Source: a virus. Taken from it: 35,536 nucleotides of DNA. The DNA lies in the IMG/VR virus record IMGVR_UViG_3300045974_000426, positions 1-35,536 of that record; one strand, given 5' to 3'. Position 1 is the stretch's first letter. Each line of letters starts with the position of its first letter. Both the position numbers and the translations under genes were made by a program. This document shows, in pieces, positions 430 to 30,642 of this stretch. Under the pieces are notes generated by a model. That model was given only the letters and a program-made list of their open reading frames with translations, was not told where the DNA came from and made no database searches.

Positions 430-939
430 TTAAAGTGAGTAGATGAGAAAGTCAGCCAATGTAGATGTGGCTTGCGTGGCAATAAACTGTGCCTCAGGTA
501 CATCCGCACCCGTGGCAAGCAGGGCGAGGGCGTATTCATGTGCCACAGTCATCTCAGATGGGATCTGTAGTACTGGTGTTTCGCCTGTCACCCAAAGACC
601 AAGGTCACGAAAGATATGGTCCTCCATGATGGGCATCATTGCTGCGTCGCGTAACAACATTAGCTCATAGAGCTCAGCGTTGGCACGCCTTACCTGCCCA
701 AGGTCTCCATGGAGGCGACGATGCCCATGGATGGTGTAGTTGCTGGTGTATGAGCCACCCGGTGCATAGTACATCAAGATGATGTAGAAGCCGTCCTCGA
801 GCTTGGGCCAGTCCGCGACCGCCTTGCAGGGATGCAGCTTCTGATCCCTGTCACGTACGAAGTAGTGCTTGCCACCGCGCATACCAACGATGTCGAACTG
901 GATGGGCTGGCGGGCATAGAGGTCGGCGTTGTAGCCCAT
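430..939 (-). CDS. Hypothetical protein, 169 aa
   Basis: The ATG at 939-937 overlaps the stop of the preceding gene (TAATG), so the two are translationally coupled. The protein begins MGYNADLYARQPIQFDIVGM. It looks soluble, with an aromatic-rich middle (GFYIILMYYAPGGSY) and no signal peptide or membrane segment. No family was recognised. It is the last gene before a 218-base gap in the leftward operon that starts at the 1175 promoter. Confidence 0.75.
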   Translation of the reverse strand: MGYNADLYARQPIQFDIVGMRGGKHYFVRDRDQKLHPCKAVADWPKLEDGFYIILMYYAPGGSYTSNYTIHGHRRLHGDLGQVRRANAELYELMLLRDAAMMPIMEDHIFRDLGLWVTGETPVLQIPSEMTVAHEYALALLATGADVPEAQFIATQATSTLADFLIYSL

Positions 940-1151
940 TACTTGGCCCTCTTCGTGCCGTGGAATGCCTTCAGCGCCTTCAGTGCAAGCCGCTGCTCCG
1001 CCTCCATCATGTCGTTGATGACGTTGCTCAACTTCAAGAGGACTGCTGGGTCAATCAAGTTGGTCCCCTGATTGGCTCGGTGGCTTGACTGTAGGAAGTC
1101 CAGGTGCTGCTCGACTTCCCGAAGGGCTGTAACTCGTTCTGACATCTTCAT
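939..1151 (-). CDS. Hypothetical small helical protein, 70 aa
   Basis: The ATG at 1151 has a good ribosome-binding site (AAGGAG, 7 bases upstream). The protein begins MKMSERVTALREVEQHLDFL and is predicted by eye to be mostly helical, with a basic C-terminus. The gene follows a TATGATA box at 1175-1181, so it is probably first in its own transcript, with the 169-aa gene second. No family recognised. Confidence 0.75.
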   Translation of the reverse strand: MKMSERVTALREVEQHLDFLQSSHRANQGTNLIDPAVLLKLSNVINDMMEAEQRLALKALKAFHGTKRAK

Positions 1152-1199: not shown

Positions 1200-1679
1200 T
1201 CATGGAATAATCAGGATGGAGTGCCTTTCTTTCAGCCACTCACGTGTCGCTACCTCATCGTTGAAGAGACGAGAGTTTCCGTCATACTCCTCACGCTTAG
1301 ACGAGATGTAGTCCATAAACTCAGCCTCAGTCAGCGGGTTAGGCAGTTCAGATGCACGAATGCCCGTGTATGGCACGGCTGGCTTTGGCTCCTTCGGCGG
1401 CTTGACTGGCTTTGAAAGAGGAACGCGCACTTGCTCAGGCCCATAGGTCCGACGGGGCTTCTGCATGACAACTGCACGTGGAATACCCACAAGCCCACTT
1501 GCAAGCTTGATGTAGGAGGAAAGGCTGTCCTGCAGGATGGCTACCGTCTCTCCTTCTGACAGCTCAAGCACATCAAGGTTGAGCTTCTCCAGCTCATGAA
1601 GCAGGTCCGCAAACTGAGGCTTTAGCTTGATAAGCTTTCGGACCACAAGTTCACGAGGTGAAATGTTGCTAGTTAGCAT
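1200..1679 (-). CDS. Hypothetical protein, 159 aa, downstream partner of the polymerase-like gene
   Basis: I chose the ATG at 1679 because GAGGAAG lies 6 bases upstream; a TTG at 1694 in the same frame would add five residues. The start overlaps the end of the 411-aa gene by 11 bases, so the two are likely co-translated. The N-terminal half is helical (about residues 10-60); the middle is rich in proline and lysine (KPVKPPKEPKPAVP) and looks like a flexible linker; the C-terminal third holds a compact acidic/basic segment ending in HSILIIP. No family was recognised. Its tight coupling suggests it works with the polymerase-like protein, but that is inference. Confidence 0.75.
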   Translation of the reverse strand: MLTSNISPRELVVRKLIKLKPQFADLLHELEKLNLDVLELSEGETVAILQDSLSSYIKLASGLVGIPRAVVMQKPRRTYGPEQVRVPLSKPVKPPKEPKPAVPYTGIRASELPNPLTEAEFMDYISSKREEYDGNSRLFNDEVATREWLKERHSILIIP

Positions 1680-2904
1680 AGTGCTCTTCCTCAAGTCTCA
1701 CTTCAAATCCCAGTTTACGATGGATACGACTACTTAGTTCAACTACATCAACGGGTCTCTCTGCAGCCCAGCCATCGTGTAGCAGAAAGTGCCTGTTGCC
1801 TGTCTCGAGCAGGTAGGACCTAACCTCGTTCATCACGAGACGCTCAAGATAGAAGTAGCGCGCCCACTTGTGGCGGCTGTTGATGGCCAACTTGCGCGGC
1901 TTGCCTGTCTTCAAGCTAACCTTCTCAGTCCGTGTCATGGACTGCTCGATGTAGGCCCAGCACTGCTTGATGTCCTCTCGCAACTCGGTGACGAAGGGAT
2001 CAGCACGGAGGGCATTCACTCTGTCATAGTCCTGGCCGAGCATGTGAAACAGCGAGTAGGACCTGTTGGCACCCAGTCGAGCACCGCAGAAGAGCGCATT
2101 GATGAGGGTCTTCGCCAGCTTCTTGTCGATACCTCCGACCTGAGCCACGTATTCTCTGGCTAGGTCCCGGTTAGCCAGGTAGTCCCGAAGGGCGAACAGA
2201 TAGAGGTCCATGTTGAATGGTTGTTGTTGCTGGGCGTGCTGGTGTATCAAAGTCGGTGCGCAGGCCTCAATATCATACGAATACGTCAGCCCGGATGCAG
2301 CAAGCACCTCGGTTCTCACCTCCCGGGTGACGTTCTGGAGCGAGTGCCACAACCGTGATGCTTTATCCTTGTAGGAGAAGGTCAGGCTGCTTAGGTCAGT
2401 TGCATACTCGCGCTTCACCCATTCGACTGCGACCTGGCGGTCATAGAGGTCCTCAACCTGCCCGGATACTTGTGCTACAATAAGGAGAGAATTGAGAGGA
2501 GAGAAGATACTCTCCTCGGTCATTGTTTGGTCGGACTTTAGGGCTGCACTCCAGTCACCCGTCTTCAAGCCGGCCTTTACTGCCTCCGACCCGACTTTGG
2601 ACAGGGCGTACTGCTTCACCTTGCCCTCGGCCATGTCGAAGTGGTTGTCAGTGCACACGAGCAGTACTCGTCGCATCCACCGGCTCAGGTCGTGGTTCTG
2701 GGAACCAAAGTGCTTGTCCAGCACAATCTTGGCAACCGGCTTTGAGTTTCGTGTGGAGAGCACTGCGCGGCAGAAGCCATAGACGTGCTTCACCTTGCGC
2801 AGGATGCGCGGGTCAGAGAAGTTTGGGGTGTAGTTGGGTTTCATGATGTCTCTCGTAACCTGCTTGCCGACAGGGTCAATCGAGGAGCGGGAGAAGACAT
2901 CCAT
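1669..2904 (-). CDS. Putative small single-subunit polymerase-like protein, 411 aa
   Basis: The protein shows, in order, three motifs resembling those of right-hand polymerases. YDIEACAPTLI at 210-220 has an aspartate like motif A; it also resembles the DxxSLYPSII pattern of family B enzymes. K261-xxx-K265-xxx-N269-xxx-C273-G274 has the spacing of the family A / T7 RNA polymerase O-helix motif (R/K-xxx-K-xxx-F/M-xxx-Y-G). LLHDGW at 374-379 resembles motif C (HDE in DNA polymerase I, HDS in T7 RNA polymerase). At 411 aa it is much shorter than usual family A polymerases, and no exonuclease domain is apparent. It is the largest early-strand gene and the only candidate replication or transcription enzyme in the genome. 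The start at 2904 lacks a clear ribosome-binding site; Met21 (MKPNYTPNF) is an alternative. The assignment rests on motif reading only and could be wrong. Confidence 0.5.
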   Translation of the reverse strand: MDVFSRSSIDPVGKQVTRDIMKPNYTPNFSDPRILRKVKHVYGFCRAVLSTRNSKPVAKIVLDKHFGSQNHDLSRWMRRVLLVCTDNHFDMAEGKVKQYALSKVGSEAVKAGLKTGDWSAALKSDQTMTEESIFSPLNSLLIVAQVSGQVEDLYDRQVAVEWVKREYATDLSSLTFSYKDKASRLWHSLQNVTREVRTEVLAASGLTYSYDIEACAPTLIHQHAQQQQPFNMDLYLFALRDYLANRDLAREYVAQVGGIDKKLAKTLINALFCGARLGANRSYSLFHMLGQDYDRVNALRADPFVTELREDIKQCWAYIEQSMTRTEKVSLKTGKPRKLAINSRHKWARYFYLERLVMNEVRSYLLETGNRHFLLHDGWAAERPVDVVELSSRIHRKLGFEVRLEEEHYAN

Positions 2905-3617: not shown

Positions 3618-3735
3618 ACCCACTACAGAGCAGCTCGCCAAAGAGCTTGCCCAACTACTCATCCTCATCCAGGACCTCCAGCTCGAGTTGTCCCTATTGA
3701 AGCGCAAGCTACACACACAAGGCATCGCAACTTGA
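3610..3735 (+). CDS. Small leucine-rich helical protein, 41 aa
   Basis: ATG 3610 overlaps the end of the 73-aa gene, and the stop TGA (3733-3735) overlaps the TTG start of the endonuclease I gene (TTGA). The peptide starts MSKPTTEQLAKELAQLLILI and continues with leucines spaced as in a short coiled coil (DLQLELSLLKRKL). The exact packing between two genes, with overlaps on both sides, is the main support. It may be an assembly or anti-host peptide; function unknown. Confidence 0.6.
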   Translation: MSKPTTEQLAKELAQLLILIQDLQLELSLLKRKLHTQGIAT

Positions 3736-4082
3736 CTACCTACAAGTCCGGCTTTGAGCGTACCTTCGCCAAGCAGTTCAAGCTGCCCTACGAGACCACT
3801 CGGCTGGCCTATGTCGTTACCCACCACTACACCCCCGACTGGACAGTGGGACCAACCCGGTTCATTGAGACCAAGGGGCTATGGACCGGTGCCGACAGGC
3901 AGAAGCACCTCTACATCAAGAAGCAGCACCCACACATCGAGGTCCTCTTGGTGTTTCAAGACCCCAACCGTCGGCTCAGCAAGGCATCCAAGGTGACCTA
4001 CTCAGCCTGGTGCGAGAAGCACGGACTACCATGGGCATCGGCGACAGATCTAAGTGCCATCACTGCCTGGGTCCATAAATAG
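3732..4082 (+). CDS. T7 endonuclease I-type Holliday-junction resolvase
   Basis: The 116-aa protein resembles phage T7 gp3 along its length. SGFE (residues 6-9) supplies the first catalytic glutamate, HYTPDW (32-37) the aspartate D36, and IETKGLW (45-51) the E46-x-K48 pair; these correspond to T7 E20, D55, E65 and K67. The conserved tail CEKHGLPWA is also present. The enzyme resolves branched DNA during replication and packaging by paired nicks, acting as a dimer. It begins with TTG overlapping the previous stop (TTGA). T7 gp3 is 149 aa, so this is a trimmed version lacking part of the termini. The assignment is strong. Confidence 0.93.
   Translation: MTTYKSGFERTFAKQFKLPYETTRLAYVVTHHYTPDWTVGPTRFIETKGLWTGADRQKHLYIKKQHPHIEVLLVFQDPNRRLSKASKVTYSAWCEKHGLPWASATDLSAITAWVHK
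4074..4081 (+). promoter_or_regulatory. CATAAATA motif at the end of the endonuclease I gene
   Basis: The octamer overlaps the last codons of the resolvase gene and stands 52 bases upstream of the ParB-methyltransferase start. It is one of five copies at gene junctions. A short CCCC/GGGG hairpin (about 4104-4118) follows. A promoter role is conjectural. Confidence 0.3.
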
Positions 4083-4132: not shown

Positions 4133-5479
4133 ATGAACAGAATGCAGGTAAAGCAACTACCCATCGATGCCGTCAAGCCCTATCCGGGTAACCCACGCAT
4201 CAACGACAAGGCAATCGACCCTGTCGCCGCCTCCATCAAAGAGTTCGGATTTCAACAGCCCATCGTAGTCGACAGTGAGAACGTTGTCATCGTAGGCCAC
4301 ACCCGCCTACTGGCTGCCAAGCGCCTTGGACTGACTGAGGTGCCGGTGGTGGTGGCCGACGACCTGACCCCCGACCAAGCTAAGGCCTACCGCCTGGCCG
4401 ACAACCGGACCAACCAGAACGCCGAGTGGGACTGGAGCCTGCTAGGTGAGGAGCTGCAGGGTCTACTTGAGGACTGCCCTGACCTGGTGCCACCCACCGG
4501 GTTTGATGCTGAAGAGATCAAGAAGGCCCTGCACTTCGACGACGGAACCCACATTCGAGACTACACCCCTCGAGACAAGGAAGACCCACTGTCGGCCTAT
4601 GGAGATGTATGGACCTCAACCGACGGCGAACACATCGTCGTCTGCAGCGAGAACAACCAGCAGCTGGCCACAGACCTCATCAAGAAGAACCCCATCGACT
4701 GCATCTGGACGGACCCACCGTACAACCTGGGGCTAAGCGGTGTTGGTGGCAAGGTCCACAACGACACCTTTGCAAGTGACACCGAGTTTACCAGCTTCCT
4801 GACCTCCTGCTTCAAGGAGGCCATCGCTGCACTTCCAGCAGGCTGCTTCGTGTTTAGCTGTGGTGTTCATGGCTCCTACATTCCAAACCGAGCTGCACTT
4901 GAGGGGCTTGGAATGCAGCTAAAGCACCAACTTGTCTGGGTCAAGCCACCCTCCTACACTATGAATGGGACCTTCGCGAAGTCCCATGAGGTCATCTGGT
5001 TGTTCCAGAAGCCAGGGTCGAGACACATCAACAACACCGCCCAGAACCCGCGTGAAGAACACGACGAGCTCCTTATCCCCCACGAGCACCTGGAGAAGAA
5101 GTCGAAGAACGAGCTGCTCGACTACGTCCAGAAGCTCACCGCGTCAATGGACACGCAGCGCACCACCCGAGAGCACGACAGGTGGGCCGACCACCCGACC
5201 GTGAAGCCGTCAAGTCTTATCAAGCAGCACCTGAGTCGCGTCACCTACCCTGGAGACCGGGTACTTGACATCTTCGGTGGAAGCGGCAGCACCGCGGTTA
5301 CCTGCTTTAGCATGGGTCGAAAGAGCCTGACGTTTGAACTTGACCCAGGCTACGTCGATGTGACGCTGACCCGCCTCTACGAGAACTACCAGTGCGACTT
5401 CACCAACCAAGCCGGTGTGAAGTGGTCAGACATCTGGGAACCCGAGAAGAAGCGTCGGGAGTCACTCGATGCTGCCTGA
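4133..5479 (+). CDS. ParB/Srx-like domain fused to a DNA methyltransferase
   Basis: The 448-aa protein has two parts. Residues 5-130 form a ParB-like nuclease/Srx domain: IDAVKPYPGNPR at 11-22, then VIVGHTRLLAAKRLG at 52-66 and the ADNRTNQN block. Residues about 155-430 are an S-adenosylmethionine-dependent DNA methyltransferase with DPPY (194-197) as catalytic motif IV and FGGSGST (381-387) as motif I; this IV-before-I order is that of beta-class N6-adenine/N4-cytosine enzymes. ParB-methyltransferase fusions are common in phages and are thought to modify phage DNA against host restriction. ATG 4142 is a possible alternative start. It is placed just before the terminase genes, and its short coupled neighbour starts inside its last codons. 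Confidence 0.93.
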   Translation: MNRMQVKQLPIDAVKPYPGNPRINDKAIDPVAASIKEFGFQQPIVVDSENVVIVGHTRLLAAKRLGLTEVPVVVADDLTPDQAKAYRLADNRTNQNAEWDWSLLGEELQGLLEDCPDLVPPTGFDAEEIKKALHFDDGTHIRDYTPRDKEDPLSAYGDVWTSTDGEHIVVCSENNQQLATDLIKKNPIDCIWTDPPYNLGLSGVGGKVHNDTFASDTEFTSFLTSCFKEAIAALPAGCFVFSCGVHGSYIPNRAALEGLGMQLKHQLVWVKPPSYTMNGTFAKSHEVIWLFQKPGSRHINNTAQNPREEHDELLIPHEHLEKKSKNELLDYVQKLTASMDTQRTTREHDRWADHPTVKPSSLIKQHLSRVTYPGDRVLDIFGGSGSTAVTCFSMGRKSLTFELDPGYVDVTLTRLYENYQCDFTNQAGVKWSDIWEPEKKRRESLDAA

Positions 5480-6093: not shown

Positions 6094-7498
6094 CTGGTCA
6101 CTTGAGGAGGTCGTTGCCGAGCTAAGTCGACGGCAGAGCGTAGGGGGATGGAGCACCAGGTACTTCAACACCCCTGATACCCGGCTCAAGTATCCCAAGC
6201 ACTGGGAGTACTTCGATGCGGGAGCAACTCATGGCACCCGTCTCTTTACCGCCGGAAATCAAGTTGGTAAATCCCTGTCCTCTGCCTGTGAGCTCGTCAT
6301 GCACCTCACTGGGGACTACCACCCGGACTGGAGAGGTCGCCGCTTTGATGGCCCAGTCAACGTCTGGAATGTAGGCAGAACCGCTGAGCTTGTCCGTCAG
6401 ACCATCCAACCCTTGCTGCTTGGGCAGGTCAACGCCTTTGGGACCGGGCTCATCCCCAAGGACAAGCTCGACCTCGGCACCCTCACCGACGCCAAGCGCG
6501 CCTCGACCCCAATCAACGCCTTCCGGGTCCTCAGCAGGAACGGTGGCTACAGCACGGTCGCCCTGAAGTCAGGTGAGCAGGGTCGTGAGGCATTTCAGGC
6601 GGCTACGCTGGACATCGTCTGGGTGGACGAGGAGATCCCCTTCGACGTCTTCAACGAGTGCCAAGTCCGGTTGCTTGTTCGCAACGGCATCATGATGTAC
6701 TCATTCACTCCACTGAAGGGCACGACTGAGGTCATCCAGTCGTTCAGCGTCGATGGGACGTTCGTTGAGGGCGACGTTGGCAGTGGTCGCTACGTGGTGC
6801 GCTGCTCCATGTATGACGTGCCTCACCTCTCCACGGAGATGATCGACAAACTCGCAGTAACGACACCGCCCTTCCTGCGAGATGCACGTATCTACGGTAT
6901 CCCATCCCTTGGTGCCGGCGCGATCTACCCAGTCCCTGAGAGCGACTTCGTCATCGAGCCCCAGCCCATTCCCAAGCACTGGACCCGCTGCTATGGGATG
7001 GACGTCGGGAACAAAACAGCTGCGGTCTGGCTTGCCATCGACCCAGATGGCGGCGAGATCTGGACCTACGCCGAGTACTACCGAGAAGGCGCTGAGCCCT
7101 CCATCCACACCGCCGGCATCAAAGCCAAGGGCGACTGGATCCCAGGCGCCATCGACCCGGCCGCCAACGCCGGCTCACAGAAGGACGGAGAGAAACTGAA
7201 GGAGCTCTACGTCGACCTCGGGCTTGACCTCGTAAACGCCGTCAACGCGGTTGAAGCTGGGCTCTACACCATCTGGGAGATGCTCTCGACCGGTCGCCTG
7301 AAGGTGTTCAGCTCCTGCACCGGTCTCTTGAAGGACATCAAGGGCTACCAGCGGGATGAGAAAGGCAAGGTCAAGAAAGAGAACGACCACCGTGCCGACG
7401 CCTGGCGCTACGCCGTGATGACGAGAGACATCGCGATCACTCAGCATGCGCTAAATAAAGCATTCACCGGGCGCCCAACCGCGAGACCGGTATTCTAA
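6083..7498 (+). CDS. Terminase large subunit (packaging ATPase/nuclease)
   Basis: The motor that pumps DNA into the prohead and cuts the concatemer. Walker A is TAGNQVGKS (residues 56-64 from this start) and Walker B is DIVWVDEE. The RNase H-like nuclease part shows GMDVGNKTAAVWLAIDPD, then GAIDPAAN, and the final acidic motif DHRADAWRYA. The TTG at 6083 is preferred because GGAG stands 7 bases upstream; an in-frame ATG at 6050 without a ribosome-binding site would add 11 residues. It overlaps the small subunit gene and is followed after 9 bases by the portal gene. With P22-like head genes, headful packaging is expected. Confidence 0.93.
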   Translation: MVADWSLEEVVAELSRRQSVGGWSTRYFNTPDTRLKYPKHWEYFDAGATHGTRLFTAGNQVGKSLSSACELVMHLTGDYHPDWRGRRFDGPVNVWNVGRTAELVRQTIQPLLLGQVNAFGTGLIPKDKLDLGTLTDAKRASTPINAFRVLSRNGGYSTVALKSGEQGREAFQAATLDIVWVDEEIPFDVFNECQVRLLVRNGIMMYSFTPLKGTTEVIQSFSVDGTFVEGDVGSGRYVVRCSMYDVPHLSTEMIDKLAVTTPPFLRDARIYGIPSLGAGAIYPVPESDFVIEPQPIPKHWTRCYGMDVGNKTAAVWLAIDPDGGEIWTYAEYYREGAEPSIHTAGIKAKGDWIPGAIDPAANAGSQKDGEKLKELYVDLGLDLVNAVNAVEAGLYTIWEMLSTGRLKVFSSCTGLLKDIKGYQRDEKGKVKKENDHRADAWRYAVMTRDIAITQHALNKAFTGRPTARPVF

Positions 7499-7507
7499 AG
7501 GACACCC

Positions 7508-9661
7508 ATGGACGTTACCCTCTCCTCCTCCGATGCGAACCTGTCCGACGAGGACCTCATCAAGGTCGCCTTGGAGCAGTTCGACCATGCAAGTTCCGCC
7601 TGTCGCGAGCACCGGCAGCTTGCACGTCAGGACCTGGACTTCCTCGCCGGGAACCAACTTCCCGGGAACAACCAAGACCCCTACGCCCTGAAGGTAAACC
7701 TCCTGACGCCGTTCGTCCAGCAGGTCATCGCCGAGGCGCAGCAGAAAAACGCCGCCATCAAGGTGGTCTGCAACGGCGATGGAGCCGACGAGGAGATCGC
7801 CGAGGTCCGTGGTGGCATCGTGCGCGACATCGAGGACAAGTCCGATGCCAAAACAGCGTACAACACGGCGATCTTCTACGCGACAGCCGCGGGTGAAGGT
7901 TACCTCCTGCTCACCGGGGAGTACGTCAAGGAGGATGGGTTCGACCAAGACCTGCGCATCAAGGGCGTCTTCAACCCCGAGATGATCTTCCTGGACCCAG
8001 CCCACGAGGACCTGACGGGTGAAGATGCCGAGTTTGGGTTCATCATCAAGGACGTCCCGACCTCGGTGTTCCGTCGGCAGTACCCGAAGTCGAAGCTGGA
8101 GGACATGCTTCAAGGACGCGGGTTCAACCGGCTCAGTCTGCCCAACGCCTGGGTGAACGAGCACACCATTCGGGTCGCCGAGTACTGGCGCAAGGTCTTG
8201 ACCCCGACGAAGCTGTACCTCTGTCAAGACCTCCTGGACCCGATGAAGCCCGACGTCACCCTGGACACGAAGCCCGACCCTCTGCAGCACGTCGTCAAGA
8301 AAGTCCGGAACTCGTTCAAGACGACCATCAAGGCACACACCCTGACCGCCTTCGAGGTCCTGGACACGATGGAGTGGCCAGGCACCCGTCTCCCGATCTT
8401 CAAGGTCAGCGGCGAGACGTTCTACGTGGGTGGTCAACGCCAGATCCGCGGTGCCATTCGCTCGATGATCGACGCGCAGCGCCAGTACAACTTCGCCGTC
8501 AGCAAGCAGATGGAGATGCTGGACCAAGCACCGAAGAACTCCTGGGTGATGACGAAGAAGCAGCTCGGCGACGGTGACGACGCCACGAACTGGGCGAACA
8601 GCAACGTGCTGAACATCTCAGTGCTGACCTACACCGCCGACAGCTCAGCACCACCTCCGTTCCGGTCGCCAGGGTTGAACATGGAGAGCTTCACCGCCCT
8701 TGCCAACGCCCGAGACCAGTCCTACAGCGCCCTACAGCTCGTGACCGGCTTGAACCCATCCAGCTTCGGTCAGAACCCACAAGACCTCAGCGGCGTCGCC
8801 CAACAAGGTCAGGTCGAGCAAGGTTCCCGCAGCACCTTCATCTACATCGACCACTTCTTTACCACCCTACGCGCCCTTGGTCGAGAGATCAACCACCTCA
8901 TCCCGACGTTCTACGACACCGACCGGGTGCAGCGCATCGTGAAGTCCAACGAAGAGGAGCAGATCGTCCAGTTGAACTCCCCAAGCAATGACTACCGGTA
9001 CGACCTCTCGAAAGGGGACTACACCGTCAGCATCAGCACCGGCCCGGCGTTTGCCTCGAAGCGGGAGGAGGGCTTCAACGCGATCATGCAGATCCTGTCC
9101 GCCCTGCCCGAGAACATGCGCCCGAACGTCGCCGACCTGGTGGCATCTCAGGTCGAGAGCCCAATCTCGAAGGACGTTGCCGCCCGCTTCAAGGCGTTGC
9201 TGCCACCTGCTGTACTCGCCGCCACCGAGACGGGCGACACCGACCTGGCACCACGCGCCCAGGTGCAGGCTCTGAAGGGCCAGCTCGCGCAGGCGATGCA
9301 AGCCGGTGAGCAGCAAGGCATGAAGCTGCAGGAGCTTGAGCTTGAGAACAAGACCCTAAAGGACCAGTCCGCGCTTGAGCTGACGAAGGCGGACATGACG
9401 CACACCGAGAAGATGGCGCAGCTGAAGCTGGATGACCAAGTCGCCGAGGTCGAGGCACACCTGACGGTGATGAAGCTGCAGCTCGAACACGAGAAGTTAG
9501 CTCTTGCTCGACAGGAGCTGGAGATGAAGTCCCTGCTGGCCGCACATGAGGTCAATGAAGCCGGCAAGCCCGAGAAGGAACTAACCTCGGAGGACCTCGA
9601 TATCTCGCTGAGTGGTATTGACATGCCAAACACCACAGATATCGGTGGAAAGCTGGATTGA
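7508..9661 (+). CDS. Portal protein (P22 gp1-like)
   Basis: The 717-aa protein matches the P22-type portal family in size and pattern: an N-terminal RQDLDFLAGNQL segment, the LKVNLLTPFVQQVIAEAQQK block at about 60-80, and GVFNPEMIFLDPAHEDLTGEDA around 150-175. Portals form the dodecameric ring at one head vertex through which DNA enters and leaves and to which the tail adaptor binds. The C-terminal ~130 residues are a long charged coiled coil (LKLQELELENKTLK and after), analogous to the helical barrel of P22 portal. AAAGGA 6 bases upstream supports ATG 7508. Confidence 0.92.
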   Translation: MDVTLSSSDANLSDEDLIKVALEQFDHASSACREHRQLARQDLDFLAGNQLPGNNQDPYALKVNLLTPFVQQVIAEAQQKNAAIKVVCNGDGADEEIAEVRGGIVRDIEDKSDAKTAYNTAIFYATAAGEGYLLLTGEYVKEDGFDQDLRIKGVFNPEMIFLDPAHEDLTGEDAEFGFIIKDVPTSVFRRQYPKSKLEDMLQGRGFNRLSLPNAWVNEHTIRVAEYWRKVLTPTKLYLCQDLLDPMKPDVTLDTKPDPLQHVVKKVRNSFKTTIKAHTLTAFEVLDTMEWPGTRLPIFKVSGETFYVGGQRQIRGAIRSMIDAQRQYNFAVSKQMEMLDQAPKNSWVMTKKQLGDGDDATNWANSNVLNISVLTYTADSSAPPPFRSPGLNMESFTALANARDQSYSALQLVTGLNPSSFGQNPQDLSGVAQQGQVEQGSRSTFIYIDHFFTTLRALGREINHLIPTFYDTDRVQRIVKSNEEEQIVQLNSPSNDYRYDLSKGDYTVSISTGPAFASKREEGFNAIMQILSALPENMRPNVADLVASQVESPISKDVAARFKALLPPAVLAATETGDTDLAPRAQVQALKGQLAQAMQAGEQQGMKLQELELENKTLKDQSALELTKADMTHTEKMAQLKLDDQVAEVEAHLTVMKLQLEHEKLALARQELEMKSLLAAHEVNEAGKPEKELTSEDLDISLSGIDMPNTTDIGGKLD

Positions 9662-9674
9662 ACCACCCCCGCCA

Positions 9675-9682
9675 CATAAATA
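9675..9682 (+). promoter_or_regulatory. CATAAATA motif upstream of the scaffold gene
   Basis: This octamer lies 13 bases after the portal stop and 47 bases before the scaffold ATG, followed by a small hairpin at 9691-9704. It is the clearest intergenic copy in the late arm. Its role as a promoter is inferred from position only. Confidence 0.35.
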
Positions 9683-9690
9683 AACCACCT

Positions 9691-9704
9691 GGTGCTAAAG
9701 CACC
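9691..9704 (+). terminator. Small hairpin between portal and scaffold genes
   Basis: GGTGC-TAAA-GCACC forms a 5-bp stem (6 bp if the loop closes to two bases) followed only by TT. It is too weak to be a sure terminator; it may trim or stabilise the downstream mRNA. Confidence 0.3.
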
Positions 9705-9728
9705 TTCCCACGCAACGGAGTAGATTGC

Positions 9729-10505
9729 ATGACGACGCAGACAGAAGGCAACCCAACTGAGTTGGATGAGGCCATCAAGACACAAGACGAGCAAGGTTTG
9801 AACCCCGAACCCGAAGTCGAGGCACCCGCCGAGGACAAGGGTGAAGAGGAACGGAAGCGGTTGAGCCGCACCGAGAGGATGGAACGACGCTTCGGCGAGA
9901 CGCTCCGTCGGCAGGAAGAGGAGATCAACCGCTTGAGGGCGATGATTGACACCTCGACCGAGAAGTCGACCGAGAAGCCGCTGATGGCGAACTTCGACAC
10001 CCTTGAGGAGTGGGTTGAAGCCCGAGACGAGTGGAAGGAAGCCCAGCTGGTTGCGAAGCTGAAGTCCACTACCTATGATGAGAACCTACAGGCGGCATAT
10101 GAACGTCGACTGCAGGCAGCCAAGCCTAATCTTCAAGACTGGGACGAGGCAATGGAGAACCTACAAGGTGTGAAGATCTCACCCGACACGGTTCACTTCA
10201 TCAAGGAAAGCGAACTCGGACCGCAGCTTACGCAGTACCTCGGGCTGAACGTCGAGGAACTTGAACGTCTGAACAAGCTGTCCCAGACCCGTCGTCTGGC
10301 TGAACTCGGAAAGTTAGAAGACAAGCTGGAAGCTAAGAAAGCGCCGACCAAACAGGTCACCAAGGCGCCGACGAAGCTGACGGATGTCAAAGGAACACCG
10401 GTCATTATGTCGGACCCTGATGCCGCAGCTCGAGCAGGTGGTTATGCCGCCTGGAAGGCCGCCAAGGAAGCACAGAAGTCCACTGCAAAGACCAAGAGCG
10501 CCTAA
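9729..10505 (+). CDS. Scaffolding protein
   Basis: The 258-aa protein is acidic at the start and highly charged and helical throughout, with a coiled-coil segment (SRTERMERRFGETLRRQEEE, about 38-57) and a basic C-terminus. It stands between portal and coat genes, the fixed position of scaffolding proteins in P22-like phages; these guide coat assembly and leave the prohead before DNA packaging. GGAG precedes ATG 9729. There is no enzymatic motif, so the call depends on composition and position. Confidence 0.82.
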   Translation: MTTQTEGNPTELDEAIKTQDEQGLNPEPEVEAPAEDKGEEERKRLSRTERMERRFGETLRRQEEEINRLRAMIDTSTEKSTEKPLMANFDTLEEWVEARDEWKEAQLVAKLKSTTYDENLQAAYERRLQAAKPNLQDWDEAMENLQGVKISPDTVHFIKESELGPQLTQYLGLNVEELERLNKLSQTRRLAELGKLEDKLEAKKAPTKQVTKAPTKLTDVKGTPVIMSDPDAAARAGGYAAWKAAKEAQKSTAKTKSA

Positions 10506-10538
10506 ATAGGCAAGTCAATCTACATCTAAGGAGCCACT

Positions 10539-11813
10539 ATGGCAGCCCCATCAAGCATTCTGAAGGTCCTCGGAGACGTTACGTTTTCCAGCGCCGAATA
10601 CCTGTACAACATCAACGGTCTTCTGCCCCGCGTCAACCGCGACTATGACAGCCGCTTCGGCAAGACCGGCGCCAAGATCGGTGCGATCACCAACGCCCGC
10701 CTGCCTGGTCAGTTCAACGGCACCACGAACCTCTCAAGCTCACAGTTCGAAGGTCAAGCCCTGACGGACAAGACCGTGCCGGTCGCCCTGACGGACAACT
10801 ACAAGCAGCACATGTTCCTCGACATGGTCGACTTGAACCTGTCGGTCGACGACTTCATGGTTCGCTACGGCCAACCGGCAATGCGTCGGATGTCCGCTGA
10901 GATCACGCAGCGTGGCTTCACGAAGCTGATGCAGTACACCCCGAACGCCGTTGGCACCCCAGGCACCGCGATCACCAGCAACGCCGGCTTCCAAGGTCTG
11001 ATCGGCTCCGCCCGTCAGGTCCTCACGGAAAACCTGGCACCGATGGGTGAGCAGTGGGCGATGGCTACGCCGCCTTCGTTCGAGAACCTCGGCTACACCT
11101 ACACGACCAACCAGTTCAACCCACAGGTGTTGATCTCCGACATCCAGAAGTCCGGACACATCTCCGGCTTCAGCGGTATGGACTGGTTCGTGACGACGCA
11201 GCCCTTGGTTACCGCCGCATCCACCTACGGTGGCACCCCGCGCGTCAACGGCGCATCGCAGGCGGGCTCCTCGCTGATCACCGACAGCTGGACCGCAACG
11301 ACCACGACCCTCGCAGTCGGCACGGTGTTCACCATCGCCGGTGTCAACGCCGTCAACCCTGAGACCAAGCAGGACCTCGGCTACGCCAAGCAGTTCAGCG
11401 TGACCGCCGCTACCGTTACCGACGGCGCTGGCAACTCCACGGTCGCGATCTCTCCTGAGATCATCGCTCCTGGTGACCCGCGTTCGAACATCTCCATCGC
11501 CATCCCGGACAACGCCCTCATCACGGTGCTCGGCGCCACGGGTACGACCGGCAAGACCGGTCTGGCCTTCGCCAAGGACGCCATCATCTTCGCAACGGCT
11601 GACATCTCCCCATCGGGTGCCGGTCAAGTTGGCGGTGGTGCTTCCAACGGCGGTGCTGACTTCTTCGTCGCCTCGCTGCCGGAACTCGGCCTCTCCGTGT
11701 ACTGCGCCCTGCAGTTCGACATCGACACCCGTGCGTACAAGCTGCGTTACGACGTGCTCGGCGGTTGGGCTCCCCTGTACCCACAGCTGGCCACCAAGGT
11801 CTACTACGGTTGA
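10539..11813 (+). CDS. Major capsid protein (P22 gp5-like, HK97 fold with I-domain)
   Basis: The 424-aa protein follows the P22 coat pattern: LPRVNRDYDSRFGKTGAKIG near residues 29-48, then TVPVALTDNYKQHMFLD and a later TIAGVNAVNPETKQD block that matches the beta-barrel I-domain inserted in P22 coat protein. About 420 copies of such a protein would build a T=7 head. AAGGAG precedes ATG 10539 and a strong hairpin terminator follows at 11820, as expected for the most abundant late product. Confidence 0.93.
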   Translation: MAAPSSILKVLGDVTFSSAEYLYNINGLLPRVNRDYDSRFGKTGAKIGAITNARLPGQFNGTTNLSSSQFEGQALTDKTVPVALTDNYKQHMFLDMVDLNLSVDDFMVRYGQPAMRRMSAEITQRGFTKLMQYTPNAVGTPGTAITSNAGFQGLIGSARQVLTENLAPMGEQWAMATPPSFENLGYTYTTNQFNPQVLISDIQKSGHISGFSGMDWFVTTQPLVTAASTYGGTPRVNGASQAGSSLITDSWTATTTTLAVGTVFTIAGVNAVNPETKQDLGYAKQFSVTAATVTDGAGNSTVAISPEIIAPGDPRSNISIAIPDNALITVLGATGTTGKTGLAFAKDAIIFATADISPSGAGQVGGGASNGGADFFVASLPELGLSVYCALQFDIDTRAYKLRYDVLGGWAPLYPQLATKVYYG

Positions 11814-11819
11814 GCGAAC

Positions 11820-11838
11820 GGAGGCTTCGGCCTCCTTT
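11820..11838 (+). terminator. UUCG-loop terminator after the coat gene
   Basis: GGAGGC-TTCG-GCCTCC is a perfect 6-bp GC-rich stem with a very stable UUCG tetraloop followed by TTT, six bases after the coat stop. The short T-run suggests partial termination, giving more coat mRNA than downstream mRNA. Confidence 0.8.
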
Positions 11839-11868
11839 GCCTAACCTGTTCACACATAAGGAAACATC

Positions 11869-12081
11869 ATGAGCACATTCACCACGCAGTCCTCACAGAC
11901 CAGCACTCCATCCACCGTTACGACCGCGAACTTCCAGTTCGTTGGTCCTGACATCATGGTCGCCTCGTCTACCGGCAACATCGGGTTCTTCGGCACCACC
12001 CCGGTCCTGAAGCCAACCGGCGTTACCGACCTCGCCACTCTCCTGGCAGCCCTGACCGCCCTCGGTCTGATCTCGGCTTAA
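11869..12081 (+). CDS. Small head-associated protein, 70 aa
   Basis: The protein is rich in Ser/Thr at its start and ends PVLKPTGVTDLATLLAALTALGLISA, a helix-like tail seen in small head-fibre or decoration-type proteins of phages. TAAGGA precedes ATG 11869. It lies directly after the coat gene and between two hairpins, so it is expressed with head genes. A decoration role is inference. Confidence 0.65.
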   Translation: MSTFTTQSSQTSTPSTVTTANFQFVGPDIMVASSTGNIGFFGTTPVLKPTGVTDLATLLAALTALGLISA

Positions 12082-12117
12082 GTCAACGGGCCCCATCGTT
12101 GGGTCCTCTACCTCGAT

Positions 12118-12139
12118 GGGGTCAAGCAAGCTTGACCCC
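12118..12139 (+). terminator. 10-bp inverted repeat, hairpin before the split adaptor gene
   Basis: GGGGTCAAGC and its complement GCTTGACCCC are separated by two bases; allowing a small loop this gives an 8-9-bp stem. Only a broken T-run follows (TTGCCGTTT), so it may be a weak terminator or an mRNA processing site. The ribosome-binding site for the next gene begins 14 bases further on. Confidence 0.5.
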
Positions 12140-12160
12140 TTGCCGTTTCTATGGAGAGTT

Positions 12161-13249
12161 ATGGCTACCATTCAGTCCATCACAGCCGCCGCCCTACGCA
12201 AGTTGAACGTCATCGGGGTCAATGAGGTCCCGACCGCCGTCGACGTCGAGCAGGCGCAGGAGCGACTGAACGCCCTGTTAGACAGCCGGTCTAACGAGTT
12301 GACGAATATCTTCAAGCGGGTTCCACTGGTGTTCCTGTTTGAGAACAACCAGTACAGCTACAACCTTGGTCCGACGGGTGACTGGGTAACTGAGCGCCCG
12401 ATGAGACTTGAGCTCAGCCGGGTCTTGCTCTCACCGGACATCGTGACGTCACCAACCGCTAACTTCACCTCGACCCGTACCGACCTGACCATTGCATTCG
12501 TTGATGCAAGCACCTTTAACCCAACAAGTTGGCTCTGGGACTTCGGCGACGGCTCGACCTCCACCACTCAAGACCCAACGCACACCTACGCCACTGCGGG
12601 TAACTACCTCGTCTCGCTGACGGTCGCAAACTCCGCAGGTACGGACACCAAGCTCTGGTATGTGCAGCCAGCCGACCCACCGGTCGTCGGGCTCTGGCAG
12701 TACAACGGGACCGCCGCCACGATGCAGTACGCCTCCGCCTATGGGGCATTTACCGACGTTGCCGGTGAGTTCGACAGCACTGCGCTGCCCACCGGCGGTG
12801 TGCTTTATGCACCGAACCTGGCGTACATCAACCAAGCTGACTTCCCACACAGCGGTTGGGTTCAGAACGGCGCGACCTTCAAGACCACCACCACCTGGGA
12901 TGACGACGGCACCAGTCGGGCATTCGAGATGAAGCTCCTGCAGACCCCGACGGCTTGGTGTCAAGCAGGTATCTTCATCCAGTCCTACGGTCCGCCCTAC
13001 GACCCGAACACCATGGCTGGCGGACCTCTGTCGTCCTACCTCGCGACCGACCAGTACACCGCCGCGGTCTACGGCTACGGTGGTGTGCAGTCTACCCTAC
13101 CTCCGCTGGTCGCCGGTGACGTCGTCGGGGTCGTAAACTCCAGCTACTCCGTGCAGTTCTACGTAAACGGGGTCTATGTGAGCAACTCGAACACCTCGAA
13201 CAACATCGGGTTCGTGCCGATGTGTGGCGTCGGCACCTACGCCTACTAA
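12161..13249 (+). CDS. Tail-adaptor N-half (gp4-like) fused to PKD and SPRY-like domains
   Basis: Residues 1-94 match the N-terminal half of the intact adaptor encoded at 14042: MATIQSITAAALRKLNVIG versus MTIQSIITGALRQLNVIG, and NLGPTGDW versus TLGPGGDW. At the point where the intact copy continues with a loop (YPAIGGDGSIG), this protein switches to a PKD domain (97-164; WLWDFGDGS, HTYATAGNYLVSLTV) and then to a SPRY/lectin-like beta domain (about 177-362; AGDVVGVVNSSYSVQFYVNG). The C-half of the adaptor is in the next gene. GGAGAG precedes ATG 12161; an upstream ATG at 12116 falls in the hairpin and is rejected. It probably sits in the neck ring and exposes the extra domains; binding to sugars or host surface is inferred. 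Confidence 0.85.
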   Translation: MATIQSITAAALRKLNVIGVNEVPTAVDVEQAQERLNALLDSRSNELTNIFKRVPLVFLFENNQYSYNLGPTGDWVTERPMRLELSRVLLSPDIVTSPTANFTSTRTDLTIAFVDASTFNPTSWLWDFGDGSTSTTQDPTHTYATAGNYLVSLTVANSAGTDTKLWYVQPADPPVVGLWQYNGTAATMQYASAYGAFTDVAGEFDSTALPTGGVLYAPNLAYINQADFPHSGWVQNGATFKTTTTWDDDGTSRAFEMKLLQTPTAWCQAGIFIQSYGPPYDPNTMAGGPLSSYLATDQYTAAVYGYGGVQSTLPPLVAGDVVGVVNSSYSVQFYVNGVYVSNSNTSNNIGFVPMCGVGTYAY

Positions 13250-13258
13250 GGAGACACG

Positions 13259-14032
13259 ATGAGCACACCAGGTGTACCAACCGCCGCGTTCCTCACACCA
13301 GCTACTTGTCGAGTTGGTGATGTAGTCCAGCTCCTGAACACCACCACCGTGAACGAGAACTACACCGCCACGTATGTCTGGACGTTTAGCGATGGAACGA
13401 CCTCGACTGCAACTGAGCCCGTCAAGGTCGCGACGACGCCCGGAGTTCTCACGATCATGCTGCGCGCAGCAGGACCTATCGGGACCACCGACGCCCTCCA
13501 TCAAGTCACGATCAGACCAAACACGAACACCCGAGCCGGGTCCATCGGCGAAGGTACGGTGAGCATCAACATCGAGACCGTCAACGACGAGCAGTACGCC
13601 GGCATCCCACAGCGAGGTGTCACCAACGCCATCCCTCAGGTGATGCTCGACAACGGCGGGTACCCGAACCGACAGCTGTTGTTCTGGCCCATCCCAACGG
13701 ACCGCACGGTAGGTGTCGAGCTCTGGTGCTGGGAGCCCCTTGGGGTCTACACCTCACCCACCGAGGAGCTGAACCTACCACGTGGCTATGAGCGCTGGTT
13801 GACCTACACCCTCGCCCTTGAGCTCAGCGACCTGTTCGGCAAGCCACCTTCGGCGGACATCATTGCCAGCCAGGCGGAGGCTGAAGAGGCCCTACAGTCC
13901 ATCAACCGAGTTGCCTTGACGACACCCGCCTCCGACCTCGCCTTGTCCCTGAACAGCACAGGCACGGTGTACAACAAGATCGACTTCCTTTCTGGGGCGT
14001 GGTTGCTCAGTCCACGCGCCAAGACACGATAA
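13259..14032 (+). CDS. PKD-like domain fused to tail-adaptor C-half (gp4-like)
   Basis: Residues about 7-87 form a second, degenerate PKD-like domain (YVWTFSDGTTST). From residue 93 the protein matches the C-terminal half of the intact adaptor: AGSIGEGTVS aligns with DGSIGQTSST, FWPIPTDRTVGVELWCWEPL with LWPVPQNAFAIELWLWAPL, and ELNLPRGYERW with DLNLPKGYERY. It is in the same reading frame as the previous gene, separated by one TAA and three codons, but has its own AGGAGA ribosome-binding site. The two products together contain one complete adaptor fold plus the inserted domains. Confidence 0.83.
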   Translation: MSTPGVPTAAFLTPATCRVGDVVQLLNTTTVNENYTATYVWTFSDGTTSTATEPVKVATTPGVLTIMLRAAGPIGTTDALHQVTIRPNTNTRAGSIGEGTVSINIETVNDEQYAGIPQRGVTNAIPQVMLDNGGYPNRQLLFWPIPTDRTVGVELWCWEPLGVYTSPTEELNLPRGYERWLTYTLALELSDLFGKPPSADIIASQAEAEEALQSINRVALTTPASDLALSLNSTGTVYNKIDFLSGAWLLSPRAKTR

Positions 14033-14041
14033 AGGACCAAT

Positions 14042-14794
14042 ATGACCATCCAGTCCATCATCACCGGCGCCCTACGTCAGCTGAACGTCATCGGCGCGTC
14101 TGAGCCACCACAGGCGCAGGACACCGCGATCTGCCTCGAGGCCTTGAACGCCTTGATGGACAGCCTGTCGAACTCCCTGAGCAACATCTTCACCATCACG
14201 CCCCTACGGTTCCTACTCACGGCGAACAAAGAGGCCTACACCTTGGGTCCAGGTGGCGACTGGGACACTCCACGCCCAATGCGCATCGAGACTGCGAACG
14301 TGATGCTCTATCCAGCCATCGGCGGTGACGGCTCCATCGGACAGACCTCCAGCACGCAGTTCTTCGGGTTGAAGCTGGCTAACTACTCCCAGTTCGCCCA
14401 GCAGCCCCTTCGGTTCGTCGGCAGCACTTGGCCCACGATGCTGTACGACGACTGTGCCTACCCGCTGCGCACCGTTCGGCTCTGGCCGGTTCCCCAGAAT
14501 GCGTTCGCCATCGAGCTCTGGCTATGGGCACCTCTGAGCACCTACACCGACCTCACGGCGGACCTGAACCTCCCAAAGGGCTATGAGCGGTACCTCACGT
14601 TGAAGCTCGCCGTTGAGGTCGCACCTGAGTTCGGCAAGCAGGTCTCAGACACCACACGCGCCAACCTCGAGCAGGCGGAGACGGCTATCAAGACGTTGAA
14701 CAAACAGACCCAGGTCGTGACGCCGTCCGATGCCGGGCTTAGCTTAACCGGACGAGCACTGCGCCGGCCGGCACTCTACCCAAGGGGCTACTGA
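14042..14794 (+). CDS. Tail adaptor / head completion protein (P22 gp4-like), intact copy
   Basis: This 250-aa protein is an uninterrupted copy of the fold split across the two preceding genes. It begins MTIQSIITGALRQLNVIG and ends with a tail segment RRPALYPRGY. In P22, gp4 forms a ring below the portal that connects it with the tail machine. AAAGGA precedes ATG 14042, and its stop overlaps the start of the gp10-like gene (TGATG). Confidence 0.87.
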   Translation: MTIQSIITGALRQLNVIGASEPPQAQDTAICLEALNALMDSLSNSLSNIFTITPLRFLLTANKEAYTLGPGGDWDTPRPMRIETANVMLYPAIGGDGSIGQTSSTQFFGLKLANYSQFAQQPLRFVGSTWPTMLYDDCAYPLRTVRLWPVPQNAFAIELWLWAPLSTYTDLTADLNLPKGYERYLTLKLAVEVAPEFGKQVSDTTRANLEQAETAIKTLNKQTQVVTPSDAGLSLTGRALRRPALYPRGY

Positions 14795-16248
14795 TGGAAC
14801 GACTACCACAAGCTGAGTTCCCTTTTATCTCTGGCAGCTATCCCGCCAAGTCACGGGCGTTCGACAACCAGCGCACCCTGAATATGTACGTCGAGGCCTC
14901 CGACGTCGGAGGCGGCAAGAACGCCGCTCCTGGCTACCTGACGGCCTGCGCCGGCCTGCGCCAGGTCCAGTCCTTGGGCAGTGGTCCACACCGCGGGTCG
15001 TACCTGCTCAGCAACGCCTCACGTGCGTTCTTCGTCAGCGGCAATGAGGTGTACTTCCTGACCTCACCTCTCGGCAGCCCGGTGCGCATCACCGGTAACC
15101 TGAACACCTCCGTCGGGTTCGTCAGCATGGTGGACAACGGGACCGACCTGCTCATCGTTGACGGTGCCAACGGGTACTTCGTTGACCTCAGCACCAACGT
15201 CTTGACGACCATCAACGACCCGCACTTCTACAACGGGGCTGTTACCTGCACCTACCTCAGCGGTTACTTCATCTGTGACGAAGGTCCGAACTCGACGTCG
15301 TTCTTCATCGGCACACCCGACAGCACGACTTGGCCGGCCTTGAATGAGTTCAGCGCCGACACCTCGCCCGATGTCATTCGCGCCTTGATCTCCGCAAACC
15401 AGCAGCTGTACGTCCTCGGCTCGAAGACGCTGGAGGTCTGGGCTACGAACTCACAGGCAACGGCGCTCTCCGATGCCTTCACCCCTAACTCCGGTCGGTC
15501 CATCAACATCGGCTGTCAGGCACCTGGCACTGTGCAGCGGGTCGCCAATACGTTCATCTTCCTCGGACAGAACGACCAAGGTGCGGGCGTCGTCTACGCC
15601 CTGGACAGCGACGTGCCGAACCGGGTATCTACCCACGCCATCGAGCACGTCCTCCAACAGGCGGGTGACTTGACCTCAGCCACAGCGGTTGCTTGGCAGG
15701 AGGACGGGCACTACTTCTACGCTCTGCAGGTCCCAACGTTGAACACCACCTTGACGTACGACTTGACGACGAAGACTTGGTTCGACAAGCAGACCCGCTA
15801 CAGCGGAGTGTTTGACCGGTGGGCTGGTCAAACACACTGCTTCCTGAACGGCGTGCACCTCATCGGGGATCGTTCAAGTGGAAACTTGTACCAGCTCGAC
15901 CAGACCTACGACAAAGACGGCGACAGCACCTGCTACCGTGAGCGTCGGACACCACACATCTCGAAGGGCGTCAGTGTCTGCTTCTACACGACGCTACAAG
16001 TCGACATCCAAGCGGGCATCGGGTCACTCACCGAGGACCCAAGACTGACCTTGCGGATCTCTCGTGATGGCGGTGCCACCTACGGCAACCCGGTCTACGC
16101 CTCGATGGGCAAGGTCGGTGAGTACCGCTGGAGAGCTCGATGGAACCGGTTAGGCTATGCACGTGACGCGGTATTCGCCATCGGGTGTGACGGTTTTCAG
16201 CCGGTCTTCTTGGGCGCCTTCCTGGACTACACTGAGGGAACTTCTTGA
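14794..16248 (+). CDS. Packaged DNA stabilisation protein (P22 gp10-like)
   Basis: The 484-aa protein starts LPQAEFPFISGSYPAKSRAF, followed by NQRTLNMYVE, the pattern of the Phage_stabilise family, and has repeated beta-rich blades across its length. In P22, gp10 forms a hexamer that joins the gp4 ring to the tail needle and closes the head after packaging. Order (adaptor, then gp10) is as in P22. No needle (gp26) homologue was recognised next to it. Confidence 0.9.
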   Translation: MERLPQAEFPFISGSYPAKSRAFDNQRTLNMYVEASDVGGGKNAAPGYLTACAGLRQVQSLGSGPHRGSYLLSNASRAFFVSGNEVYFLTSPLGSPVRITGNLNTSVGFVSMVDNGTDLLIVDGANGYFVDLSTNVLTTINDPHFYNGAVTCTYLSGYFICDEGPNSTSFFIGTPDSTTWPALNEFSADTSPDVIRALISANQQLYVLGSKTLEVWATNSQATALSDAFTPNSGRSINIGCQAPGTVQRVANTFIFLGQNDQGAGVVYALDSDVPNRVSTHAIEHVLQQAGDLTSATAVAWQEDGHYFYALQVPTLNTTLTYDLTTKTWFDKQTRYSGVFDRWAGQTHCFLNGVHLIGDRSSGNLYQLDQTYDKDGDSTCYRERRTPHISKGVSVCFYTTLQVDIQAGIGSLTEDPRLTLRISRDGGATYGNPVYASMGKVGEYRWRARWNRLGYARDAVFAIGCDGFQPVFLGAFLDYTEGTS

Positions 16249-16808
16249 GCACCGCACTGACATTGCTGCAGGACCTCACAGGTCTCCCACCGGTCGAGCA
16301 TCGTTCGCTCCACCTGCTTGACATCCCGAAGCGGCTCAGCCGCGAGGAGTTCGACGCCCTTCCAGTCTCACCCGAAGCACTAAATAACCGACTGAAGATT
16401 GAACGCCTTGAGGCCGCCTTGAACGAGCTGCCCGACCACCTGTCTCCGGAGGACGACCCGTTTGAAACTTGGCACGACATTACCGGCAAGGTTTACAACC
16501 GCACCCTGCACCTGCCGCCAGGTACGCTCATCGTCGGCAAGAGACACGCGATTGAGCATGTGTTCATGCTGCTCTTCGGTGAAGCTACCATCATGACGGA
16601 GCGTGGTGTCGAGCACTTCGTCGCACCCTTTACCTTCATCTCTCCGGCGGGTGAGAAACGGGTGATCTTGACCGAGCTTGGCTGCACCATGGTTACCTGC
16701 CACGCCACCACAAAGACAACGCTTGAGGACATTGAGCTCGACGTCATCATGTCCGACGCACCACTACTTGAAGGAGCCGAACATGGCATGGTTTGCAACG
16801 GGGATTAG
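16245..16808 (+). CDS. Cupin-like protein, 187 aa
   Basis: The TTG start overlaps the previous stop (TTGA) and has GAGGGA upstream. Residues 1-75 are helical; from about 82 the sequence has a cupin-like double-stranded beta-helix pattern: GTLIVGKRHAIEHVFMLLFG, then GVEHFVAPFTFISPAG and TELGCTMVTCHAT. Paired histidines (HAIEH, EHF) could bind metal. Proteins of this kind occur in podoviral structural operons without a settled function; a small virion or ejection-related role is inferred from position. Confidence 0.7.
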   Translation: MSTALTLLQDLTGLPPVEHRSLHLLDIPKRLSREEFDALPVSPEALNNRLKIERLEAALNELPDHLSPEDDPFETWHDITGKVYNRTLHLPPGTLIVGKRHAIEHVFMLLFGEATIMTERGVEHFVAPFTFISPAGEKRVILTELGCTMVTCHATTKTTLEDIELDVIMSDAPLLEGAEHGMVCNGD

Positions 16809-29751: not shown

Positions 29752-30067
29752 GCTAATCGCGTACCTCATCCTCGCCGCCTCGATCGCCGGGGCTATGTTC
29801 TACGTGCACCACCTGAAGGCAGACATCGAGGATCTGACCACGAAGGTTGCTTCAGTCACCGTGGAGCGTGACACCGCCCTGGCTCAGGTCAAGGAGATCA
29901 CCTCAGCCCGTGACGAGGTTGCCAAGAAGCAAGCACTTGCTGAGACCGCAACGGCTCAGGTCAAGGCGGAGCTCAGCAAGGCCCGCGCTCGTGTCCAGTA
30001 CGTGACCATTCCAAGTGAGTGCCCGGCTAAGCTGGACTGGCTGTTTGAGCAGGTCAGTCAGCCTTAG
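29741..30067 (+). CDS. i-spanin (Rz-like), 108 aa
   Basis: It begins with GTG inside the end of the previous gene. Residues 4-22 are an N-terminal membrane anchor (KLIAYLILAASIAGAMFYVH) and residues 25-90 a long periplasmic coiled coil (DIEDLTTKVASVTVERDTAL and on), the architecture of lambda Rz. It would pair with the lipoprotein at 30643 to fuse inner and outer membranes at lysis. The final 14 bases overlap the opposite-strand homing endonuclease gene. Confidence 0.8.
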   Translation: MNPKLIAYLILAASIAGAMFYVHHLKADIEDLTTKVASVTVERDTALAQVKEITSARDEVAKKQALAETATAQVKAELSKARARVQYVTIPSECPAKLDWLFEQVSQP

Positions 30068-30623: not shown

Positions 30624-30642
30624 TTGGTTATGGAGGTTAGAC

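Follow-up and report, generated by a model that had tools for sequence, protein, structure and literature searches.

A predicted compact TV-Pol-like polymerase, divergent within the family A superfamily, encoded by a small tailed phage

The window, i.e. the whole stretch of DNA analysed, is the IMG/VR virus record IMGVR_UViG_3300045974_000426 and comprises 35,536 bases. It represents a small tailed phage. Virion genes (terminase, P22-like portal, scaffold, coat and tail genes) run rightward from about 6 to 30 kb, and small leftward genes flank both record ends. The ends (positions 1-205 and 35375-35536) have a repeat of about 160 bases in common, differing by one 42-base unit. This 42-base (14-codon) unit lies within a leftward reading frame and is present in about three copies at one end and in two at the other. 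Because of the shared repeat, we infer that the genome, of about 35.4 kb, is essentially complete and either circularly closed or terminally redundant; completeness is our interpretation of the repeat and not a statement of IMG/VR. The difference between the two ends would then reflect a closed genome with a variable coding repeat. The gene under study heads a leftward run near the left end, and the features around it are the following:

430 to 939, minus strand: leftward ORF of 169 amino acids (aa), downstream of the polymerase gene
939 to 1151, minus strand: leftward ORF of 70 aa, downstream of the polymerase gene
1200 to 1694, minus strand: TTG-initiated ORF of 164 aa that overlaps the polymerase gene at the latter's 3' end
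1669 to 2904, minus strand: putative TV-Pol-like polymerase of 411 aa with an ATG start
3732 to 4082, plus strand: T7-type endonuclease I of the Holliday-junction resolvase family (PF05367, E 2e-27)

The 164-aa ORF gave zero matches in Pfam and PHROG searches and could be an accessory protein of the polymerase. Endonuclease I is the sole other recognisable DNA-recombination gene in the window. According to Pfam, 4133-5479 encodes a fusion of the ParB N-terminal domain with an N6/N4 DNA methyltransferase.

Searched by itself, the 411-aa protein had zero matches in Pfam (E up to 10), the canonical family A entry PF00476 included, in PDB sequences and, by tblastn, in phages, and its PHROG matches were weak (best E 0.032). 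Scans of viral contigs returned zero relatives among 3, 36 and 36 stretches, whether the query was the window protein or a profile headed by it or by P0003. Tblastn against plasmids gave two hypothetical proteins of Polaromonas plasmids (E 1e-3 and 3e-3). These led to gp30 of Microcystis phage Ma-LMM01, a protein of Vibrio phage GR11A and an E. coli plasmid protein. With a profile of the plasmid relatives, 8 of 51 candidate genome stretches matched (betaproteobacterial copies), as did 3 of 32 stretches from viral contigs, all three from tailed phages. Among 300 genomes of one order two matched, one of them being the centre genome. A scan of 120 genomes for PHROG_34692 gave none and is uninformative, as the controls were also at zero.

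The relatives recognise the window protein in turn. An HMM of 11 plasmid, prophage and phage proteins, with the window excluded, assigns 77.5 bits to the window ORF (E 5.3e-23 at Z=1000) in a set of 274 window ORFs and 200 shuffles, the best shuffle scoring 5.5 bits. The same HMM gives 39.8, 35.1 and 20.7 bits to the GR11A, E. coli plasmid and Ma-LMM01 proteins. In profile-profile comparison the window protein and its ortholog from a sister phage (see below) match the relatives with probability 98.4 and E 8.6e-15. Shared ancestry of the 411-aa protein and the TV-Pol-like family is demonstrated by these profile scores. Two sequences, L031 (broken frame) and L032 (fragment), were excluded from all profiles and trees, and so were the LMM01-like copies L007-L024, except for L007, which is in alignment A2.

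The original prediction called the protein a divergent right-hand polymerase and proposed a profile-profile comparison. When this was carried out, family A was matched through the family: the family including window and sister, aligned by HHalign to 28 PolA proteins, scored 67.1 (E 3.6e-7, probability 93), while 50 column-permuted decoys had a mean of 16.7 and a maximum of 24.9. Window and sister alone scored 17.4 against PolA, within the decoys (up to 24.9), and the link to family A is therefore transitive, resting on the relatives. In a tree of 17 family rows (last 300-330 residues) and 12 PolA rows (last 430 residues) the two groups are split at 100/99. Several branches are long and the tree does not settle the order within the family; the window protein sits with Ma-LMM01 gp30, apart from PolA. 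A distant relative, L039 from the Burkholderiales genome G232, has the motif A FDLSSAQL and the fingers sequence KxxxYGIIFG, and by its motifs looks intermediate between TV-Pol and PolA.

The motifs on which the prediction was built are present at the residues given, in the right order within 411 aa: YDIEACAPTLI with D211, K261-xxx-K265-xxx-N269-xxx-C273-G274, and LLHDGW with H376-D377. The ORF is on the minus strand; no strand had been named. A loose ordered pattern of these motifs is matched by 1 of 20,000 shuffles, a count that serves only as a rough guide since the pattern was composed after the protein had been seen. The positions that bear on function are listed below, with their state in the 17 family and 12 PolA rows; all are on the minus strand.

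R184, 2353 to 2355: counterpart of the conserved template-side arginine; R in 14 of 14 lettered family rows (3 of 17 gapped) and in 12 of 12 PolA rows
Q190-N191, 2332 to 2337: LQN motif; Q190 in 16 of 17 family rows
D211, 2272 to 2274: motif A aspartate, predicted metal ligand (T7 DNA polymerase D475); 17 of 17 family and 12 of 12 PolA rows
A216, 2257 to 2259: aligned with the glutamate of the sugar gate in family A (T7 E480); A in window and sister only
K261, 2122 to 2124: corresponds to the O-helix R of RxxxK; the sister has H
K265, 2110 to 2112: O-helix lysine (T7 K522); 17 of 17 family and 12 of 12 PolA rows
C273, 2086 to 2088: aligned with the tyrosine of the O helix (T7 Y530); C in window and sister only
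L353-E354-R355, 1840 to 1848: in the alignment, in place of the relatives' QG-x-E motif
H376-D377, 1774 to 1779: motif C (T7 H653-D654), followed by G378; D377 in 17 of 17 family rows

In T7 DNA polymerase we take D475 to be a metal ligand, E480 the sugar gate, K522 and Y530 the O-helix lysine and tyrosine, and H653-D654 motif C. The alignment places D211, A216, K265, C273, H376 and D377 on D475, E480, K522, Y530, H653 and D654, in that order; 3 of the 28 sequences in its PolA set were in a wrong frame. D211, K265 and D377 had been predicted as catalytic positions, and the identity of all three in 17 of 17 family and 12 of 12 PolA rows agrees with this; it also argues more strongly than the shuffle count against a chance origin of the spacing. 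The sequence comparison shows the key residues of the 411-aa protein to be equivalent to those of PolA. R184 is kept in the sister phage, and the AlphaFold model does not resolve the beta hairpin. Of the RxxxK of the fingers, K265 is present and the R is replaced by K261; an R is found in just 2 of the 17 family rows and is missing also from Ma-LMM01 gp30. Residue 378 is G in 17 of 17 family rows versus E in 12 of 12 PolA rows.

Two positions set window and sister apart. Position 216 in the other 15 family rows is H (12), Q (2) or N (1), and in PolA it is E in 11 of 12 rows; at position 273 all 12 PolA rows and 14 of those 15 family rows carry Y or F, the remaining one having N. Ala216 and Cys273 appear to be new changes, confined to window and sister among the rows compared. 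The third departure, LER for QG-x-E, is read from a comparison in which 3 of 12 PolA rows (L035, L050, L053) are wrong-frame. In the PMC literature, searched together with other aims, no publication came up that describes a gate alanine in a TV-Pol. Such an active site may let the enzyme select its building blocks less strictly, and A216, C273 and LER instead of QG could also mean altered or reduced activity.

The motif A had been described as resembling family B, making the protein a mixture of two families. This part of the prediction was dropped: motif A aligns on family A motif A, and the family B profile (T4, phi29 and 11 bacterial sequences) scores 24.4 with decoys up to 25.5. It is important to note that PolA against PolB itself reaches just 29.5, so that a distant kinship of A and B would not show in this test.

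Structure prediction points in the same direction. The full-length AlphaFold model, made from seven sequences, has a mean pLDDT of 52; residues 1-192 are below 50, and in this region helices are predicted ahead of the palm, where a thumb would lie. Foldseek places family A polymerases at ranks 1-28 (best E 4.7e-3, none below 0.001). In VIA-align T7 DNA polymerase and Bst polymerase share the best Z, 10.3; rmsd values are 4.0-4.1 across 211-221 residues. All of the best 50 matches are family A DNA polymerases, and most span about residues 171-411, thus both D211 and D377; T7-like RNA polymerases are not among these best 50, an absence that proves nothing. The predicted fold is supporting, not decisive, for the assignment to family A. 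Modelling only the palm half, with 10 sequences, did not form the palm (Z 5.9 or less), and that model was discarded.

TV-Pols were described by Iyer, Abhiman and Aravind in 2008 as enzymes of plasmids, transposons and viruses, the named sources including Ma-LMM01 and Thauera; they occur with D5 helicases or resolvases, are predicted to have primase-polymerase activity and were proposed to be near the ancestral family A polymerase (PMC2579912). Their features include a thumb built from two antiparallel helices ahead of the palm as well as an RxxxK and a conserved aspartate in the fingers. We infer that Ma-LMM01 gp30 is the member meant there, although its gene name does not appear in the text of that paper, and that loci L004 and L028 of our set are its Ma-LMM01 and Thauera TV-Pols. 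The 411-aa protein resembles the TV-Pols of PMC2579912 in its two aspartates, the arginine before motif A, the O-helix lysine, the absence of a nuclease domain and the distribution in mobile elements and phages, the TV-Pols having 400-600 residues. It differs from them in A216, C273 and LER and in an N-terminal half not recognisably akin to that of the relatives. Of the original suggestion of a possibly new branch, the divergence stands; wholly new it is not, as the family contains the presumed Ma-LMM01 TV-Pol (PMC2579912) and the kind is already known. Judged from its sequence, the 411-aa protein is a real, conserved and compact polymerase, TV-Pol-like and divergent within the family A superfamily.

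Compared with T7 DNA polymerase and E. coli DNA polymerase I (PF00476), the order and identity of motifs A, B and C and the fold over residues 171-411 are alike, whereas an exonuclease domain is lacking, motif C reads HDG and not HDE, and the gate is A and not E. TV-Pol-like genes lie near a ParA-type gene on the tailed-phage contig L071 (3687-6698) and on the Polaromonas plasmids L002 and L003; such neighbours suggest phage-plasmids.

Two relatives of the phage help to place the gene. In a sister phage (G328), whose terminase is 73% identical to that of the window, an ortholog of the polymerase is found at the corresponding place, with 48% identity, the catalytic residues kept and the same Ala (A216), Cys (C273) and LER. 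Codon comparison of the two gives pN 0.38, pS 0.70, dN 0.54, dS 1.99 and dN/dS of about 0.27, with synonymous sites close to saturation; these values indicate purifying selection on the polymerase between two divergent phages. Directly upstream of its terminase gene the sister phage has a sigma-70 region 2 protein (L077 8504-9160, PF04542, E 1e-6), which suggests that late genes are served by the host RNA polymerase. The other relative (G327) is 96% identical in DNA across window 6128-17494. Its 33.6 kb contig, possibly incomplete, has zero match to the window polymerase and carries at its end a part of a helicase-primase-like gene (PHROG_3228, E 1.3e-8). Replication modules have likely been swapped between the window phage and this lineage.

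Among the window proteins scanned, no second polymerase, primase or helicase of a recognisable family was found. Searches for a helicase in or next to the polymerase operon gave zero matches, and among the annotated ATPases the P-loop pattern occurs solely in the terminase. No D5 helicase, resolvase, integrase or transposase was recognised beside the gene, which is a difference from the TV-Pols, and no recombinase was found next to it, in contrast to most TV-Pols described. Virion-module relatives are equipped in another way: MW202483 and Rhodoferax phage P26218 encode helicase-type genes and an annotated DNA polymerase (643 and 654 aa, respectively). Both enzymes match the PolA profile (which contained L035, L050 and L053 as wrong-frame rows, 3 of 28) and not the TV-Pol profile. 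What appears to be new is a 35.4 kb phage in which a TV-Pol-like protein is the lone recognisable replication polymerase, with no primase or helicase recognised.

The 411-aa protein is most likely a phage primase and/or DNA polymerase. More specifically, we consider it probable that it belongs to the TV-Pol lineage in the family A superfamily, as a compact template-directed polymerase without an exonuclease, and that it primes and/or extends phage DNA together with a host helicase. D211 and D377 would bind the two catalytic metals, K265 would contact the incoming triphosphate, R184, Q190 and N191 would keep the template in place, and a thumb or a binding module could be formed by the divergent N-terminal half. 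The enzyme would be made early, and a host helicase would be borrowed for replication because the phage shows none.

The nearest characterised working mode is likely that of the CcPol-MP primase-polymerase of SCCmec, possibly with a small partner protein. According to PMC7581432, CCPol synthesises DNA primers jointly with its partner MP, requires two catalytic aspartates and prefers dNTPs, and no other member of the TV-Pol group had been characterised by 2020. PolA-SSB pairs extend this theme, as outlined in PMC10061031. On the same two sources, CcPol-MP likewise is compact, belongs to family A, comes from a mobile element and lacks proofreading; in contrast to it, the window gene has no adjacent helicase, any SSB-like partner is a candidate, and the 411-aa protein is far from Pol I while CcPol is close to the housekeeping enzyme. 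PMC11348598 describes divPolA1 and divPolA2; in divPolA2 of barbaviruses, too, the palm is PolA-like but divergent, the N-terminal domain is unrelated and an exonuclease is absent, but barbaviruses carry a regular PolB in addition. That divPolA2 belongs to the same family was rejected, the two being hardly related by profile (probability 5.5, E 0.007).

Many small phages use host replication, and the host replisome could likewise copy this genome, leaving the 411-aa protein as an accessory polymerase of repair or recombination. The endonuclease I gene nearby would fit, as would the proposal of divPolA2 as a possible repair enzyme in PMC11348598. We regard this as unlikely: no second polymerase gene was recognised in the window, and the nearest virion-module relatives each encode a larger PolA themselves.

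The gate itself raises a different question. In T7 RNA polymerase the gate residue is small and the O-helix tyrosine is retained. If loss of the gate Glu (A216) and of the O-helix Tyr (C273) admits ribonucleotides, the 411-aa protein would be a single-subunit RNA polymerase or RNA primase, serving primers or phage transcription. Both changes are common to window and sister only and are kept at 48% identity, and for divPolA2 Yutin and colleagues thought RNA synthesis possible (PMC11348598). On the other hand, the tyrosine that T7 RNA polymerase keeps is missing here, CCPol-MP favours dNTPs (PMC7581432), and the sigma-70 region 2 protein of the sister phage suggests host RNA polymerase for late genes. 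T7-like RNA polymerase profiles score 20.6 against the polymerase family with decoys up to 23.5, in a test without power, as PolA is also at decoy level in it. We hold RNA synthesis to be rather improbable, and nothing found speaks positively for the late transcription raised in the original prediction. The bolder version is doubtful: a gateless TV-Pol with Ala216 and Cys273 for the Glu-Tyr pair, making RNA or mixed RNA/DNA, would be a 411-residue RNA primase/polymerase of an origin separate from T7-like RNA polymerases and the phage's only polymerase for replication or transcription. That the protein is a catalytically dead or DNA-binding relic, as the departures at 216, 261, 273 and the QG motif might be read, is very improbable given that both aspartates, K265 and R184 are kept and that purifying selection (dN/dS of about 0.27) acts between two divergent phages.

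With a primase and/or DNA polymerase as the preferred reading, a minimal tailed phage with maybe a single replication enzyme poses, in a simple setting, the question whether the palm of a family A enzyme is sufficient by itself for priming and copying a genome. Since Glu-to-Ala and Tyr-to-Cys have occurred naturally at the sugar gate, it can be examined directly how the synthesis of DNA and of RNA diverged in the superfamily.

Some further observations concern other parts of the window. A TET-associated glycosyltransferase-like gene at 34446-35303 (PF20691, E 3.4e-11) hints at modified DNA bases in the phage; a TET gene was not recognised in the window by Pfam. A homing-endonuclease-like ORF is found at 30054-30749 (PHROG_314, E 5e-10), and G327 DNA flanking its site is nearly contiguous (L083 7662/7676); judged against this relative, about 600 bases in the lysis region of the window look inserted. 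At 12116-14794 three adjacent genes all match PHROG_12985, the first with an inserted PKD domain, and by these matches they represent a tandem duplication of a connector-type gene.
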